A stretch of 64,000 bases of DNA from Gemmatimonadota bacterium (GTDB taxonomy: Bacteria; Gemmatimonadota; Gemmatimonadetes; Longimicrobiales; Gaopeijiaceae): the NCBI GenBank assembly GCA_029262115.1, contig JAJCZZ010000082.1, forward strand, positions 124,001-188,000, in the 5' to 3' direction. Shown piece by piece: positions 48,538 to 53,181 of this stretch. Each line of letters begins with the position of its first letter. Position 1 is the first letter of the stretch. The translations under genes and the position numbers were made by a program. The notes under the pieces are model-generated. The model did not search any database. It saw only the letters and a list, made by a program, of their open reading frames with translations, and was not told where the DNA came from.

Positions 48538-49575
48538 CTACATCCCGGATGAAGGGACCGGGACTTCCCCCAGGAGGAGATCGACGATCTCGCCGGAGGT
48601 CCGTCCCTCGGACTCGGCATGGAAGTTGGTCAACACCCGGTGGCGGAGCACCGGATGGGCCAGCGCCCGGATGTCCTCGAACGACACGTGGTACCGCCCC
48701 GACGTGATCGCCTTCGCCTTGGCGCCCAGGACCAGATACTGCGCTGCCCGCACGGACGCGCCGTACGCGATCCACTTCTTGACGAAGTCGGGTGACGTTC
48801 CGTTGGGCGATGGGCGGCTGGCCCGCACCAACTGAACCGCATACTTGAGCACCGCCTCGGACACCGGAACGCGGCGCACCAGCTTCTGGAAGGCCACGAG
48901 GTCGGGTCCGGTGATCGCGTGTCCGAACTCTGGATCGAGATTGCCGGTGGTGGTCCGTACAACCTCCATCTCCTCGTCTTCCGAGAGGTGCTCGATGACG
49001 ATCTCGAACATGAACCGGTCGAGCTGTGCCTCGGGGAGTGGGTACGTCCCCTCCAACTCGATCGGGTTCTGCGTCGCGAACACGTAGAACGGCTCCTCGA
49101 GGGTGTATGTGCGGCCCTGGACGGTCACCCGGTGCTCCTGCATCGCCTCGAGAAGCGCCGCCTGCGTCTTCGGCGGCGTCCGGTTGATCTCGTCGGCCAG
49201 GACGATGTTGCTGAACACCGGACCGGGCGCGAAGACCATCTCGCGGCGCCCGGTCTCCGCGTCCTCCTGGATGATGTCGGTACCCGTGATGTCCGACGGC
49301 ATCAGGTCCGGCGTGAACTGGATGCGTGAGAACCGGAGGTCAAGTACCTGGGCCACCGTATGGATCAGGAGCGTTTTGGCCAGGCCCGGCACGCCCATCA
49401 AGAGAGAGTTGCCGCCGACGAAGAGTGTCAGGAGCACCTGCTCGATGACCTCCTCCTGACCCACGATGAGCTTTCGCAACTCGGAGATCACCTGCAGACG
49501 CCCCGACTTCATCCGGTCGGCCAGCGCCACATCGTCCTCTCCCTCCAGATGAACTTCCCCGATCACATCAGACAA
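48538..49575 (-). CDS. MoxR-family AAA+ ATPase
   Basis: 345 residues. A TTG start is chosen because GGAG lies about 8 bases upstream. Walker A is GVPGLAKT, Walker B VLADEINRTPP, sensor 1 FATQNPIELEGTYPLPEAQL, and the C-terminal lid domain runs from about 225. MoxR ATPases act as chaperones with vWA proteins to mature or remodel other proteins at the envelope. In conserved clusters of this kind the upstream gene is usually close; here 2.7 kb of lower-GC island DNA separates it from the DUF4159 gene, so it probably now depends on a promoter in or near the island. Confidence 0.95.
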   Translation of the reverse strand: MSDVIGEVHLEGEDDVALADRMKSGRLQVISELRKLIVGQEEVIEQVLLTLFVGGNSLLMGVPGLAKTLLIHTVAQVLDLRFSRIQFTPDLMPSDITGTDIIQEDAETGRREMVFAPGPVFSNIVLADEINRTPPKTQAALLEAMQEHRVTVQGRTYTLEEPFYVFATQNPIELEGTYPLPEAQLDRFMFEIVIEHLSEDEEMEVVRTTTGNLDPEFGHAITGPDLVAFQKLVRRVPVSEAVLKYAVQLVRASRPSPNGTSPDFVKKWIAYGASVRAAQYLVLGAKAKAITSGRYHVSFEDIRALAHPVLRHRVLTNFHAESEGRTSGEIVDLLLGEVPVPSSGM

Positions 49576-49640
49576 AGCATTTCTCCGTAAGTGCGAAGCA
49601 AATTCTCGATGTACGACCGCCCGCGGAACGCGGGCACTTC

Positions 49641-49790
49641 TGGACGATCCCTACACGTTGGACGCGATTGGCGGCGAAGCCGTCGAGCAGCGGATGTTGT
49701 GAACGTTTCAAGGGTGCCGGGACGGCTCGCTTGAGAGCCGTGCCCGTCGCAGTGGCGACGCGAACGAAGCGGTAACTGTTTGTTGAACGG
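49641..49790 (-). repeat. Cassette-like repeat B after the PIN module
   Basis: Two parts. 49641-49705 is a third, diverged copy of the direct-repeat unit found at 51.94-52.17 kb (shared core GGCGGCGAAGCC). It runs into an imperfect hairpin (49706-49790) with stem CGGGACGGCTC and GAGCCGTGCCCG. The hairpin ends in GTTGAAC (49782-49788), which fits the integron core-site pattern GTTRRRY. The region 49576-49858 holds nothing else recognised. It lies about 70 bases after the PIN stop, the place an attC site would occupy. Confidence 0.5.
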
Positions 49791-49858
49791 CGTTGCATCC
49801 ACCATGTAGTGCCCCCCTTCGACTTGACCATGCGACCAATTTGGTAGATGCCTCTGCC

Positions 49859-50323
49859 CTAAGCTGAGAAGCGCAGGTGGTTGTAGTTCTCCGCTGATCC
49901 GCCCCGCCGAGTAACTTCGAGGTAAAGGGCCACATCGGTGGTCAGCAGGGTCACACCTTCCGCAGCTAGCGTTGCAAGGGCCGCGTCGGTGAGGCCGAGT
50001 CGGACAAACGAGCTGTCATTGAGCGCCGCATGCGTGTCCACATCTTGTTCGTCGAGGCGATCCACTGCCAAGATGCGTAAGGCTGCGAAGACCTTCTCAC
50101 GGGTCTCGCCGTAGAGCGCCCCTGCGAGGTTGCTGACCTCTACGAGCACATGAATCGTCGTGACGAGTTCCCGACTCCGACCGATGATCTCTAAGACTAG
50201 GTCGTAGTCGTGCACGGTGAACATCTGAGTGCGCTTGTAGCGTCCGATCAGGGCCCGATTCGTTGTCCCTACAACGAGCAGGAGAAGCAGGTTCGCGTCC
50301 AAGCAGAGCGAGACGGATTCAGG
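49859..50323 (-). CDS. PIN-domain protein (putative RNase)
   Basis: 154 residues from ATG 50323, which overlaps the upstream stop by five bases. The acidic residues expected for a PIN ribonuclease are present: Asp in SLCLDANLLLLLV, Glu in LVEVSNLAG, Asp in GLTDAALATLA and Asp in LLTTDVALYLEV. PIN proteins cut single-stranded RNA with Mg(II) or Mn(II), and many are toxins of toxin-antitoxin pairs. The coupled upstream gene is not a classical antitoxin but a PepSY-like small protein that I recall from other PIN neighbourhoods. Base composition is visibly less GC-rich than the flanking operon, indicating transfer. Confidence 0.8.
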   Translation of the reverse strand, partial: PESVSLCLDANLLLLLVVGTTNRALIGRYKRTQMFTVHDYDLVLEIIGRSRELVTTIHVLVEVSNLAGALYGETREKVFAALRILAVDRLDEQDVDTHAALNDSSFVRLGLTDAALATLAAEGVTLLTTDVALYLEVTRRGGSAENYNHLRFSA

Positions 50324-50603
50324 CATGCTCAACGCCGAACTCACGAATCTTCATCGAGAGCACCTCACCTGTCTCCCGCTCGACACTGAAGACCTTGAAG
50401 GTGCGCTTCCCCGCACCGGGTCCGAGAGAGACAAGGAAGGCGTTTTGCCGATCGGGATCGACCCAGCTTAGGGTGACAAGCCAGAGCCTTCCATCGTCGG
50501 ATAGCTCTATCTCCTCGAGAAGTGGGTCCTTTACACGACCGTCCGGATAGGCTTCCGCGGCAAAGGTCGTCGCCGAAATCACAGCCGACTCAATATCAGT
50601 CAT
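50319..50603 (-). CDS. Small protein coupled to PIN (PepSY-like, possible antitoxin)
   Basis: 94 residues from ATG 50603, chosen for a GGAG about 8 bases upstream (MTDIESAVISATTFAAEAYP). The fold pattern is helix then strands: LLEEIELSDDGRLWLVTLSW, then KRTFKVFSVERETGEVLSMK. This resembles a single PepSY-like unit: a helix and two-strand hairpin with conserved G-E-V-L. It has no DNA-binding motif. Its stop overlaps the PIN start, so the two are made together. Function is unknown; neutralising the PIN protein is the obvious guess. Confidence 0.7.
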   Translation of the reverse strand: MTDIESAVISATTFAAEAYPDGRVKDPLLEEIELSDDGRLWLVTLSWVDPDRQNAFLVSLGPGAGKRTFKVFSVERETGEVLSMKIREFGVEHA

Positions 50604-50694
50604 CTTTCGCTCCAGCCCACCATTCAGGAAGAGAGACACCCACTACGAATCTTCATCTCGACACGCCTCATTCGCGACTATTACTTCACGCTCC

Positions 50695-51008
50695 CTAGAA
50701 GGCTGTTGAAGAAGTACAACGGGCCGCGTTACTCGCGCCGAGGGTGTCAGCTTCAAGGCGGGGTGACGAAAGCGATGCCATAGCATCGGTGAGGCGCCCC
50801 AACGCAGAAGATGGCCTCTCGCCGCAGTAACCCGGGGCACCGTCACCGAAGGTGATGGTCGCGCAGGGGGGTTGCGGACTCATACGTCGTCTCTCCTCCT
50901 CACCGTAGCTATGGCTACGATTCGTCGTTGTTCCTGGTCTGAGCACTCGCAAGACCCGGGTACCCCCTGGGTGGCGCGGCCCACTGTACTTTTTCAACAG
51001 CCTTCTAG
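50695..51008. mobile_element. 314-bp MITE-like element with 38-bp inverted repeats
   Basis: The left end (50695-50732) begins CTAGAAGGCTGTTGAA; the right end (50971-51008) is its inverted repeat with 33 of 38 matches, all five mismatches being transitions. Both ends carry CTAG, a possible 4-bp target duplication or part of the repeat. The 238-bp interior encodes no recognisable transposase, so the element must be mobilised in trans. It sits between the PIN module and the secreted unknown gene of the island. Confidence 0.75.
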
Positions 51009-51849
51009 CCAATGCCTCGTAACGTTTAAGGTGGCCGATGCGGCTCGCGACGCGAGCCGGGTTCAGCGGAGCGACCAACGGGAGCGAAGCCGGCCACCGT
51101 GTGTTTAGCTGAAGTGACTTGCGTGGCGGCGAGGCAGTATGCCGGAAATCCTCCGAAAGACCGCCCAGGGAGGTACGTTGAGAGTCAAGGCCACCGCATT
51201 CTCGACTCACCGTCCCCTCGAAGATGACCCTATCAGAAACGATGCCGCCTGACGAACCGACTTCGGCAAGTCGCGTCACCAGAACGACGGAGCACGGCGT
51301 GGCGGTCCGGGCGATGGGAGCCATCTCAAGCACGAACTCTCGACCGGTGTCACTCCTCAGAAGAAGAAGGCGGGCGACTCGGAGGTCACCACGGGCGGGG
51401 CTTCCTTTCGCCAGGTTCCCAGGAAGTGCCGCCCCGCCGAACTCGGCCGGGATCTGGCCCTCGGCGCCGTACTCTTCGCGAGTGTACTCGGTCGGTCGCA
51501 TCTCGCCATCAAGCTTCACCGTGTAGACGGCGTGAAAAGACGCAAGACGAACCTCGTTGTCCCCGCAGAGGAGCCCATGCACCTGGAAGTTCGGGAGCTC
51601 CAGTGCGAACGGCTCCCCGAGGATCTGACCCGCCCGCAGCGGCACAATGTACAGCCGGTGCGACTCTGGCGAAGGGGCGGCCAGGCCAAACTGATACGCC
51701 AGGTACTCTGAGCCAATGCAGTAGTAGCCATCGCTGTCTGCATGAACTGCCATCGGACTGATCACGTTACCGAATAGTGTGACTCCAAGGACGAGGGCCA
51801 ATCGAGATGCGGACGACAACCGGCACCCCCTGTAGAACCAGCGCCTCAT
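50695..51849 (-). CDS. Secreted protein of unknown function, C terminus extended by repeat and MITE
   Basis: 384 residues as an open frame from ATG 51849. A signal peptide (to about AVHA, residue 37) is followed by DSDGYYCIGSEYLAYQFGLA, SHRLYIVPLRAGQILGEPFA, ELPNFQVHGLLCGDNEVRLA and a Cys-containing C-terminal region to about residue 240. I recall similar secreted proteins but no assigned family. From about 245 the frame runs through a palindromic repeat (to about 279) and from about 281 through the MITE-like element, ending at the TAG inside its terminal CTAG. The last 140 residues are thus probably not ancestral. Composition is lower in GC than its neighbours. Confidence 0.55.
   Translation of the reverse strand: MRRWFYRGCRLSSASRLALVLGVTLFGNVISPMAVHADSDGYYCIGSEYLAYQFGLAAPSPESHRLYIVPLRAGQILGEPFALELPNFQVHGLLCGDNEVRLASFHAVYTVKLDGEMRPTEYTREEYGAEGQIPAEFGGAALPGNLAKGSPARGDLRVARLLLLRSDTGREFVLEMAPIARTATPCSVVLVTRLAEVGSSGGIVSDRVIFEGTVSRECGGLDSQRTSLGGLSEDFRHTASPPRKSLQLNTRWPASLPLVAPLNPARVASRIGHLKRYEALARRLLKKYSGPRHPGGTRVLRVLRPGTTTNRSHSYGEEERRRMSPQPPCATITFGDGAPGYCGERPSSALGRLTDAMASLSSPRLEADTLGASNAARCTSSTAF
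51013..51115 (-). repeat. Cassette-like palindromic repeat A (attC-like)
   Basis: Outer arms GGTGGCCG and CGGCCACC enclose an inner hairpin CGGCTCGC - GAC - GCGAGCCG and an asymmetric segment. The ends are TAACGTTTAAG on one side and GTTTAGCTG on the other. It shares ACGTTT, CGGCTCGC, GAGCCG and GCGAA-GAAGC blocks, in the same order, with repeat B. Both lie just downstream of a gene on the minus strand. Core sites fit the integron consensus only partly (GTTTAGC against GTTRRRY, 6 of 7). Confidence 0.45.
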
Positions 51850-51940
51850 TGCCACGATACGTGTGGCAGTCACCCGGCTCTCCCATCCCATAAGAAATTG
51901 CAAGTCATTCCAGCTAACTCCTGTTTTCCGAACACAGATC

Positions 51941-52172
51941 GTCGACCGGGCAGCTGATCGAACGCCCCGCAAGAACTGATGGACGATCCGACCATGGTCG
52001 AAGCGACTGGCGGCGAAGCCCGCCGAGCACCAGATGCTGTGAACGCTCCTGCCTCCCGACCGTTGAACGTCGACCGACCTGCTGAGCGAACGCCCCGCAA
52101 GAACTGACGGACCAGCCGACCATGTTGGACGCGACTGGCGGCGAAGCCGCCGAGCACGAAGACGCGTGAACG
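51941..52172. repeat. Two direct repeats of about 104 bp with a 128-bp period
   Basis: Copies 51941-52045 and 52069-52172 share GTCGACCG, CGAACGCCCCGCAAGAACTG, CCGACCATG, GCGACTGGCGGCGAAGCC and GTGAACG, in the same orientation. A partial copy lies at 49641. GTTGAAC (52062-52068) separates the two. Copy 1 contains the 12-bp palindrome CGACCATGGTCG. The repeats lie between the secreted unknown gene and the DUF4159 gene and mark the upstream edge of the island. No protein is recognised in either strand. Confidence 0.75.
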
Positions 52173-52332
52173 TCGACCCGGTCCGGCCCACCGACATGAC
52201 TCGCGCCGTGAGATTTGTCGCGTCCCAAGGCGGACAAGGGGAGTCGAGGGAGACGTAGCCCAGCTACGTCGCACCGAGCGAGTCCGTAGTCCAACGCCGG
52301 GAGGCGGCAAATATCCAAGCGAGTCAAGCGAG
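52173..52332. other. Gap before DUF4159 gene with an 8-bp-arm palindrome
   Basis: Downstream of the DUF4159 stop. GACGTAGC - CCA - GCTACGTC (52252-52270) is a perfect hairpin that could end transcription of the upstream half of the cluster, although no T-run follows on the minus strand. Together with the repeats above it makes a 480-bp stretch (51850-52332) with no gene. Confidence 0.5.
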
Positions 52333-53181
52333 TCAGTGGGTTAGGGAGTATATGATGTAATTGACACCCAGCTTATACGCGTCGTTGGAAAGGTCGATCG
52401 GGTAGTAGCCGCGATCACTGAACTCCCAGTACTCCGCGATGTCGTTGTTGAAGTTGGCGATCATCATGAGCCGCTTGGTGGGGTCGTTGTCTTCGAAGAT
52501 GCCGTAGTAGAGCGGGGGCAAGCCGCGGTACGTCGCCGTGACGAAGCGTTCCGGGTGCTCGATCCGAAAGAACGAGTCGAAGATTTCGTGGCTGCCGTCG
52601 AGCTGAACCAGGTTCGAGCCCGGCAGGACGCGCCGCATCTGGAATTCGAAGTTCCTCCACTCGCCGCGCTGGTCCCGGAAGTCGTCGATGATCAGAAACC
52701 CACCCTTGTTGAGGTAGTCTCCGAGCGCCTCGACCTCTTCGTCGGTCGGATTCCAGAACCCGACCTCCACGATGTAGGCGATCGGAAACTTGAAGAGTTC
52801 CGGATCGTCCACCGCGAGGATGTTGGACGCGTCGACGCGAGGGCCGACGAGCGTCGTTTCATCGAGAATGCGCAGGAAATTCCGTTCGGCGCGCGGATAG
52901 TCATGAGCCCAGGGCGGCTCCCGTCGACCTCCGAAGCCGCCGAACCCCCCTCCGCCGCCGCCCCCTGAGCTGAATCGGAGTCGCACGAACTGGAAGAGCC
53001 CGTCGTACCCAGGGTTGTTGCTCTCGACGCTGGGCGCCTCCCGGCGAAAGCGCAGTTGCGCATCGGACGGCGCCGCCGAAATGGCAAAGCCAGCCACGAC
53101 CGCACAGCCGAGCGCGAGACCGCGACATCGTGGCGTCACGAGAGGTACTCGGAGCCATGCGCCGCCTGCGGGCCGGTTCAT
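52333..53181 (-). CDS. DUF4159 protein, second copy
   Basis: 282 residues. A basic start and hydrophobic segment (LALGCAVVAGFAISAAPSDA, then Q) indicate export. A Gly-rich linker (SSGGGGGGGFGGFGGRREPP) precedes the DUF4159 domain (about 95-282): WAHDYPRAERNFLRILDETT, FPIAYIVEVGFWNPTDEEV, LGDYLNKGGFLIIDDFRDQ, ending LSNDAYKLGVNYIIYSLTH. The fold resembles class I glutamine amidotransferases without a clear nucleophile. DUF4159 proteins accompany MoxR/vWA clusters; their role is unknown. Its ATG overlaps the stop of the TPR-peptidase gene. A paralogue starts the same cluster at 60 kb. Confidence 0.85.
   Translation of the reverse strand: MNRPAGGAWLRVPLVTPRCRGLALGCAVVAGFAISAAPSDAQLRFRREAPSVESNNPGYDGLFQFVRLRFSSGGGGGGGFGGFGGRREPPWAHDYPRAERNFLRILDETTLVGPRVDASNILAVDDPELFKFPIAYIVEVGFWNPTDEEVEALGDYLNKGGFLIIDDFRDQRGEWRNFEFQMRRVLPGSNLVQLDGSHEIFDSFFRIEHPERFVTATYRGLPPLYYGIFEDNDPTKRLMMIANFNNDIAEYWEFSDRGYYPIDLSNDAYKLGVNYIIYSLTH

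Follow-up and report, generated by a model that had tools for sequence, protein, structure and literature searches.

Integron-type gene cassettes in a conserved Gemmatimonadota operon and a candidate integrase that lacks the I2 region

The stretch of 64,000 nucleotides analysed here (the window) is part of contig C82 in the 5.45-Mb assembly of a Gemmatimonadota bacterium (GCA_029262115.1), and our subject is the segment at 49576-52332, in which a gene encoding a DUF4159 protein and a gene encoding a MoxR-type AAA ATPase are separated by ~2.75 kb. The segment almost certainly contains two integron-type gene cassettes, each ending in an attC recombination site (A and B), which entered the operon by site-specific recombination. 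A sequence-only reading had proposed a lower-GC, cassette-like island between these genes, and both the gene calls and the GC values agree with that description: the GC content of the segment is about 0.57-0.64, compared with 0.64-0.70 in the surroundings, and the order on the minus strand is indeed the secreted-protein open reading frame (ORF), A, a miniature inverted-repeat transposable element (MITE), a small ORF with a PIN-like ORF, and B. The cassettes are confined to 49704-51917, while the remainder of the island comprises a 128-bp tandem repeat and a palindromic element. In the direction of transcription the features are as follows (a vertical bar marks the crossover point).

52333-53181, minus strand: DUF4159 gene, the upstream operon neighbour (Pfam DUF4159, 1e-45)
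51918-52172, minus strand: two copies of the 128-bp tandem repeat (D1, 52046-52172; D2, 51918-52045)
51918-51931, minus strand: left half of the target, attI-like (TCGGAAAACAGGAG|TT)
51023-51917, minus strand: cassette 1, opening with TTAGCTGGAATGACTTGC; its secreted-protein ORF runs from 51849 and has no stop before attC A
51012-51114, minus strand: attC A (R'' 51103-51109; crossover G 51023; covariance model R1, 74.2 bits, E 1e-15)
49704-51022, minus strand: cassette 2, a two-gene PIN module with attC B and the MITE, bounded by the R' boxes of A and of B
50695-51008, no strand assigned: MITE with 34-bp inverted ends beginning CTAGAAGGCTGTTGAA, lying 15 nt inside cassette 2
50319-50639, minus strand: ORF of 106 amino acids overlapping the PIN gene
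49859-50344, minus strand: PIN-like protein of 161 amino acids (Pfam PIN, E 0.0059, under the cut-off)
49694-49792, minus strand: attC B, partly eroded (R'' 49782-49788; crossover G 49704; model R1, 50.2 bits, E 7.5e-10)
49629-49703, minus strand: right half of the target, a third, partial copy of the tandem repeat (TTCACAACATC...)
48538-49575, minus strand: MoxR-type AAA ATPase gene, the downstream operon neighbour (Pfam AAA_3, 2e-61)

The named relatives of the source genome are mostly Gemmatimonadota metagenome-assembled genomes, and a few bear an Acidobacteria label. Both operon genes could be located together on a single stretch in 33 relatives; in 32 of these DUF4159 and MoxR are separated by 21-222 bp, and the sole other genome of the same genus that was searched has 55 bp here. 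Because the gap is short in relatives, the stretch that separates the two genes in the window is an insertion. The empty site, which the sequence-only reading had named as a check on its proposal, is thus present, in orthologous clusters without the insert. In the remaining relative (G047, L064) the gap measures 600 bp and seems to hold, after DUF4159, a different small gene, so that this gap may tolerate insertions.

The identity of A and B was examined with a covariance model (R1) trained on ten attC sites from the same genome, from which A and B were excluded, and supplied with a structure consisting of the R''/R' stem, an inner stem and a terminal hairpin. Within the window the model matched only A and B, the next best match having an E value of 1.4, and Rfam at gathering scores returned nothing in the window. 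Both repeats display an R'' box ending in AAC and an R' box starting with GTT around an imperfect hairpin, which in B is eroded. A and B can be aligned position by position with 11 attC sites elsewhere in the genome, which bears out the earlier claim that they share named blocks in the same order, and a site on contig C18 (7.7 kb) shows 74% identity to repeat A. The shared-end pattern occurs at 12 places in the genome and at none in the reversed control, and the stems covary, with 12 cells changed on both sides, a value that 0 of 500 shuffles reached. A search for copies behind other genes had also been proposed, and such copies exist: about 28 sites in the genome match the model at E<0.01, of which some form rows at the ends of contigs and others stand alone within long contigs, and matches of the A/B type occur in 15 of the 78 genomes searched (source genome included). 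Neither of the two outcomes that would have refuted the sequence-only proposal was therefore observed. The identification of GTTGAAC at the end of B as its R' box did not stand, as the coding strand reads GTTCAAC, which is the R'' box that opens B. In the attC alignments the left arm has a conserved stretch of ~30 nt that in several members could apparently form a hairpin of its own (a three-way junction), and this conserved arm contrasts with the textbook attC, which shows little sequence conservation.

Cassette 1 opens behind the G at 51918 (G|TTAGCTGGAATGACTTGC), and this opening can pair, across a single gap, with GCAAGTCACTTCAGCTAAAC, which forms the R'' side of attC A. The excised circle would carry the junction AAACG|TTAGCTGG, and in this circular form attC A folds with a z score of -4.17. 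In place, without its own cassette opening, the site folds no better than shuffles (z 0.07); A and B folded alone gave no signal, the hairpin emerging only with the cassette closed into a circle. The crossover of A at 51023 coincides with the start of cassette 2, and that of B lies at 49704. In other arrays, 54% of neighbouring pairs obey the rule that relates opening to attC at 8 or more of 12 positions, versus 3.3% of other pairs, and the opening of cassette 2 matches its own R'' at only 6 of 12.

When both cassettes are removed, the flanks join as GGAAAACAGGAG|TTCACAACATCCGCTGCTCGACGGCTTCGCC with the junction at G|TT, and the rejoined sequence continues the upstream 128-bp tandem repeat, the second copy of which begins GGGAGGCAGGAGCGTTCACAGCATC. 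This repeat is unique to the locus in the genome, and its third copy, past the insert, is recognized with an E value of 4.6e-9. That the flanks rejoin into a repeat found only here indicates that the insertion was clean on both sides, and an assembly error is therefore unlikely. The odd R' of B, GTTCACA, has its explanation in the same geometry, since this position belongs to target DNA. A second GTTGAAC, reported between direct repeats at 52 kb, lies within the local 128-bp tandem repeat and is not an attC. The locus combines a G|TT crossover outside an integron, whose flanks restore an empty site, with two attC sites 1.2 kb apart and, by gene content, no integrase in the window, as in a cluster of attC sites lacking integrases (CALIN). 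When scored with a matrix built from six attI-like junctions of loci other than the window target, that target ranks third among the 1231 GTT sites of the window; a held-out seventh junction (G281, TCGGAAACAACGA|GTT), not in the matrix, scored 15.3.

The sequences by themselves show that A and B are attC sites, where each cassette begins and ends, that both junctions are clean and that relatives have an empty site, and cassette insertion into the operon is near certain. We propose that two integron-type cassettes entered the DUF4159-MoxR gap by site-specific recombination, along the direction of transcription, at an attI-like G|TT within the local tandem repeat. The joined product reads target-G|TT-cassette 1-attC A|cassette 2-attC B-G|TT-target, and the cassette genes would be transcribed together with the operon.

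The product of cassette 1 is a secreted protein without a family assignment. In the excised circle its frame would meet a TAG stop supplied by the attC R' (CGT TAG), and beside cassette 2 (GTTACG) this stop is gone and the frame continues into the MITE. Relatives of the PIN-like protein encoded by cassette 2 are 36-38% identical and occur in six genomes of the family, and the relative in L225 has a similar-looking small gene before it; the 106-residue ORF is probably an antitoxin-like partner of the PIN protein. The MITE, whose inverted ends are flanked by CTAG, entered cassette 2 later. Elsewhere in the genome a diverged full-length copy of it lies on C91 (L021 6494-6802) and a central fragment on C101 (L022 6342-6436). 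Outside the cassettes, a palindromic element with strong self-complementarity occupies the stretch from about 52180 or 52190 to 52332, directly after the DUF4159 stop; since G007 has a 74% identical copy in the same place (L048 1083-1199), the element is probably of the repetitive extragenic palindromic (REP) kind and older than the cassettes.

The sequence-only reading had noted that no integrase is present, which is true of the window but not of the genome. Contig C58 encodes one canonical IntI, full-length and over the curated cut-off at 349 bits, followed by an attC-like site (ending GTTAGGACGCC) that differs in type from A and B. Two further tyrosine recombinases are encoded on contigs C29 and C49, and their match to the IntI profile skips positions 173-232. 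Compared with canonical IntI, these I2-less recombinases have about 40 residues gone around I2, the region that marks canonical IntI, and keep the catalytic set (R, K, HxxR, H and Y) together with a terminal RSPLD motif; their IntI score is 225 bits, the curated cut-off being 265 bits. In a tree computed after removal of the IntI-specific (I2) region, 20 canonical IntI proteins formed one clade (100/100) and 24 I2-less proteins fell outside it. The nearest solved structure is IntI4 (2a3v), matched in two pieces around the extra domain.

Attachment sites of the A/B type lie directly 3' of an I2-less recombinase, on the same strand, at seven loci in six genomes (C29 in this genome, G001, G005, G030, G276 and, twice, G281), and none was detected near C58 or 12 other canonical IntI genes, for each of which 3-18 kb was inspected. 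In G005, a complete genome in a single contig, seven model matches follow the recombinase in a row, and no canonical IntI was found at the threshold used. An attI-like junction is located 138-291 bp behind the recombinase gene and resembles the R'' side of the first attC at 20/22 positions for C29 and for G030 and at 17/22 for G001 (each 0/200 shuffles), and at 15/22 for G276 (2/200 shuffles), the resemblance being weaker or absent elsewhere. Recombinases of the C29/C49 type are therefore found at the head of an attI site and a cassette array. Because the C49 junction runs on into the R'' side of the first attC on contig C68, C49 most likely heads the C68 array. At other close relatives of the I2-less recombinase the contig stops within about 740 bp; such contig ends were considered as a special sign of these enzymes and the idea was rejected, as canonical IntI loci end likewise.

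In the Gemmatimonadota members with readable N-termini, the I2-less enzymes carry an N-terminal domain with the motif slpGRRWDp..rvWxvP. Pfam HARP leads the matches to this domain among the members scanned (best E 3.5e-5; 23.7 bits versus a cut-off of 25), and a profile search of the PDB returned the SMARCAL1 HARP domain as its top match (4o66, E 3.1e-4). Since HARP proteins mediate annealing and branch migration of DNA (PMC4035279), it is plausible, as an inference from these matches, that the HARP-like domain reads the folded attC.

The cassettes were probably moved by an I2-less integrase with an N-terminal HARP-like domain, as encoded on C29 and C49. This is argued by the position of A/B-type attC sites, which sit directly behind I2-less enzymes and not behind canonical IntI, and by the resemblance of the window target to the attI of I2-less enzymes. 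In such an integrase the HARP-like domain would take over the reading of the folded attC. It should be emphasized, however, that several observations weigh against this proposal. A canonical IntI is also encoded in the genome (C58) and could act in trans, and IntI enzymes accept many attC sites. Across the genomes of the family, the presence of either enzyme tracks attC type weakly. No attC was found downstream of the two least similar enzymes with long sequence (G128 and G061), and in G029, which has at least 15 A/B-type attC sites on contigs C38, C71, C50 and C97, neither a canonical IntI nor an I2-less enzyme was detected at the thresholds used. At the locus itself attC B now folds poorly. 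The HARP matches lie under the Pfam cut-off, and a canonical IntI in G027 (C178, L154) that has kept I2 contains a HARP-like domain (53.6 bits, E 1.8e-17), which suggests that canonical and I2-less integrases have shared the domain.

It could be argued that A and B belong to ordinary integron cassettes, inserted in trans by the canonical IntI of C58 at a secondary attG site. The genome does encode a full-length IntI above the curated cut-off, and the insertion of cassettes by IntI at minimal G|TT sites has been described (Loot et al. 2024, as presented in PMC11023631 and PMC12901181). The lack of A/B-type attC sites around C58 and the 12 other canonical loci, the different type of the site behind C58 and the likeness of the target to the attI of I2-less enzymes nevertheless render this account unlikely. 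A good deal less probable still is that the island is the leftover of an integron that once stood here and lost its integrase: two local attC sites without an integrase and an attI-like target would fit such a history, but the insert splits the tandem repeat cleanly, no trace of an integrase is left between DUF4159 and the cassettes, and the gap is short in relatives. That A and B are unrelated hairpin repeats in a patchwork of MITE, repeats and stray genes can safely be set aside, for although the island does contain MITE, palindromic and tandem-repeat sequences, the covariance scores, the complementarity of the cassette ends, the reconstituted target and the copies behind other genes speak against it. 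Under the preferred proposal of an I2-less mover, both options offered by the sequence-only reading retain some truth: locally the two attC sites do form a cluster without an integrase, and the suggestion of an unknown cassette system is partly right in that the integrase heading A/B-type attC sites in the genome is one that would escape classification as IntI by standard detection.

Homologues of the I2-less recombinase that are 43-47% identical reside on complete plasmids of Rufibacter tibetensis and Pontibacter kalidii. These Bacteroidota proteins are ~220 residues longer at the N-terminus and are followed by same-strand rows of small genes. In the gaps between these genes lie attC-like sites, each with an R'' box that is the reverse complement of the opening of its cassette (for example GTTGGCAAAA...CTTTTGCCAAC and GTTAGCGGT...ACCGCTAAC); their attC type differs from the A/B type. 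The N-terminal extension gave no match to the HARP-like profile, and the idea that the Bacteroidota enzymes contain two HARP-like repeats was dropped, as that profile did not support it. We lean slightly towards the view that Gemmatimonadota and Bacteroidota plasmids harbour a second kind of integron, which employs an I2-less tyrosine recombinase and in which, in Gemmatimonadota, the HARP-like domain reads the folded attC.

According to the literature, the I2 domain occurs only in integron integrases and is needed by them (PMC7790495, PMC4792948), being called unique and essential (PMC7790495, PMC9668308), and detection by IntegronFinder demands the IntI-specific domain (PMC9668308). The I2 helix is thought to have given integrases the capacity for single-strand cassette recombination, and its deletion kills IntI1, but direct proof of this causality is absent (PMC7790495). 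A search of the literature brought up no account of attC arrays headed by I2-less integrases, most subscription papers lying outside that search. If the proposed second kind exists, arrays headed by I2-less enzymes are now being counted as integrase-less clusters, since detection requires I2, and these integrases would account for some of the numerous attC clusters that have been reported to lack an integrase. The I2-less form may then represent a state that preceded I2 or an independent invention; a natural lineage of this kind heading attC arrays might supply the ancestral or parallel form that has been missing and would make the I2 question directly testable. The window itself offers a clean natural case in which cassettes have entered a conserved operon and the two junctions can both be read.

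Cassettes outside integrons and integrase-less clusters are already known (PMC9668308; also Loot et al. 2024, as presented in PMC11023631 and PMC12901181). Similar to cassettes at attG sites and to CALIN, the island has genes each followed by an attC, co-oriented attC sites, a G|TT crossover, a location outside an integron and no integrase nearby; it differs in that its target is attI-like rather than arbitrary and that the likely enzyme is not a canonical IntI. The Xer-like recombinases paired with IS91 on proteobacterial plasmids are 42-45% identical to the I2-less enzymes in the catalytic part and also lack I2, but the four examined have no N-terminal extension, three of them directly precede an IS91 transposase gene, and no cassette row was found at any of the four. 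With the HARP domain of SMARCAL1 (PF07443, 4o66) the N-terminal domain shares a weak yet leading sequence match, although here it stands outside a helicase and its role would be that suggested above. Finally, the I2-less enzymes share with IntI (TIGR02249; IntI4, 2a3v) the catalytic residues, the terminal RSPLD motif and a position at the head of an attI site and cassette array, in contrast with which they are without about 40 residues including I2, fall outside the IntI clade and bear a HARP-like N-terminus.

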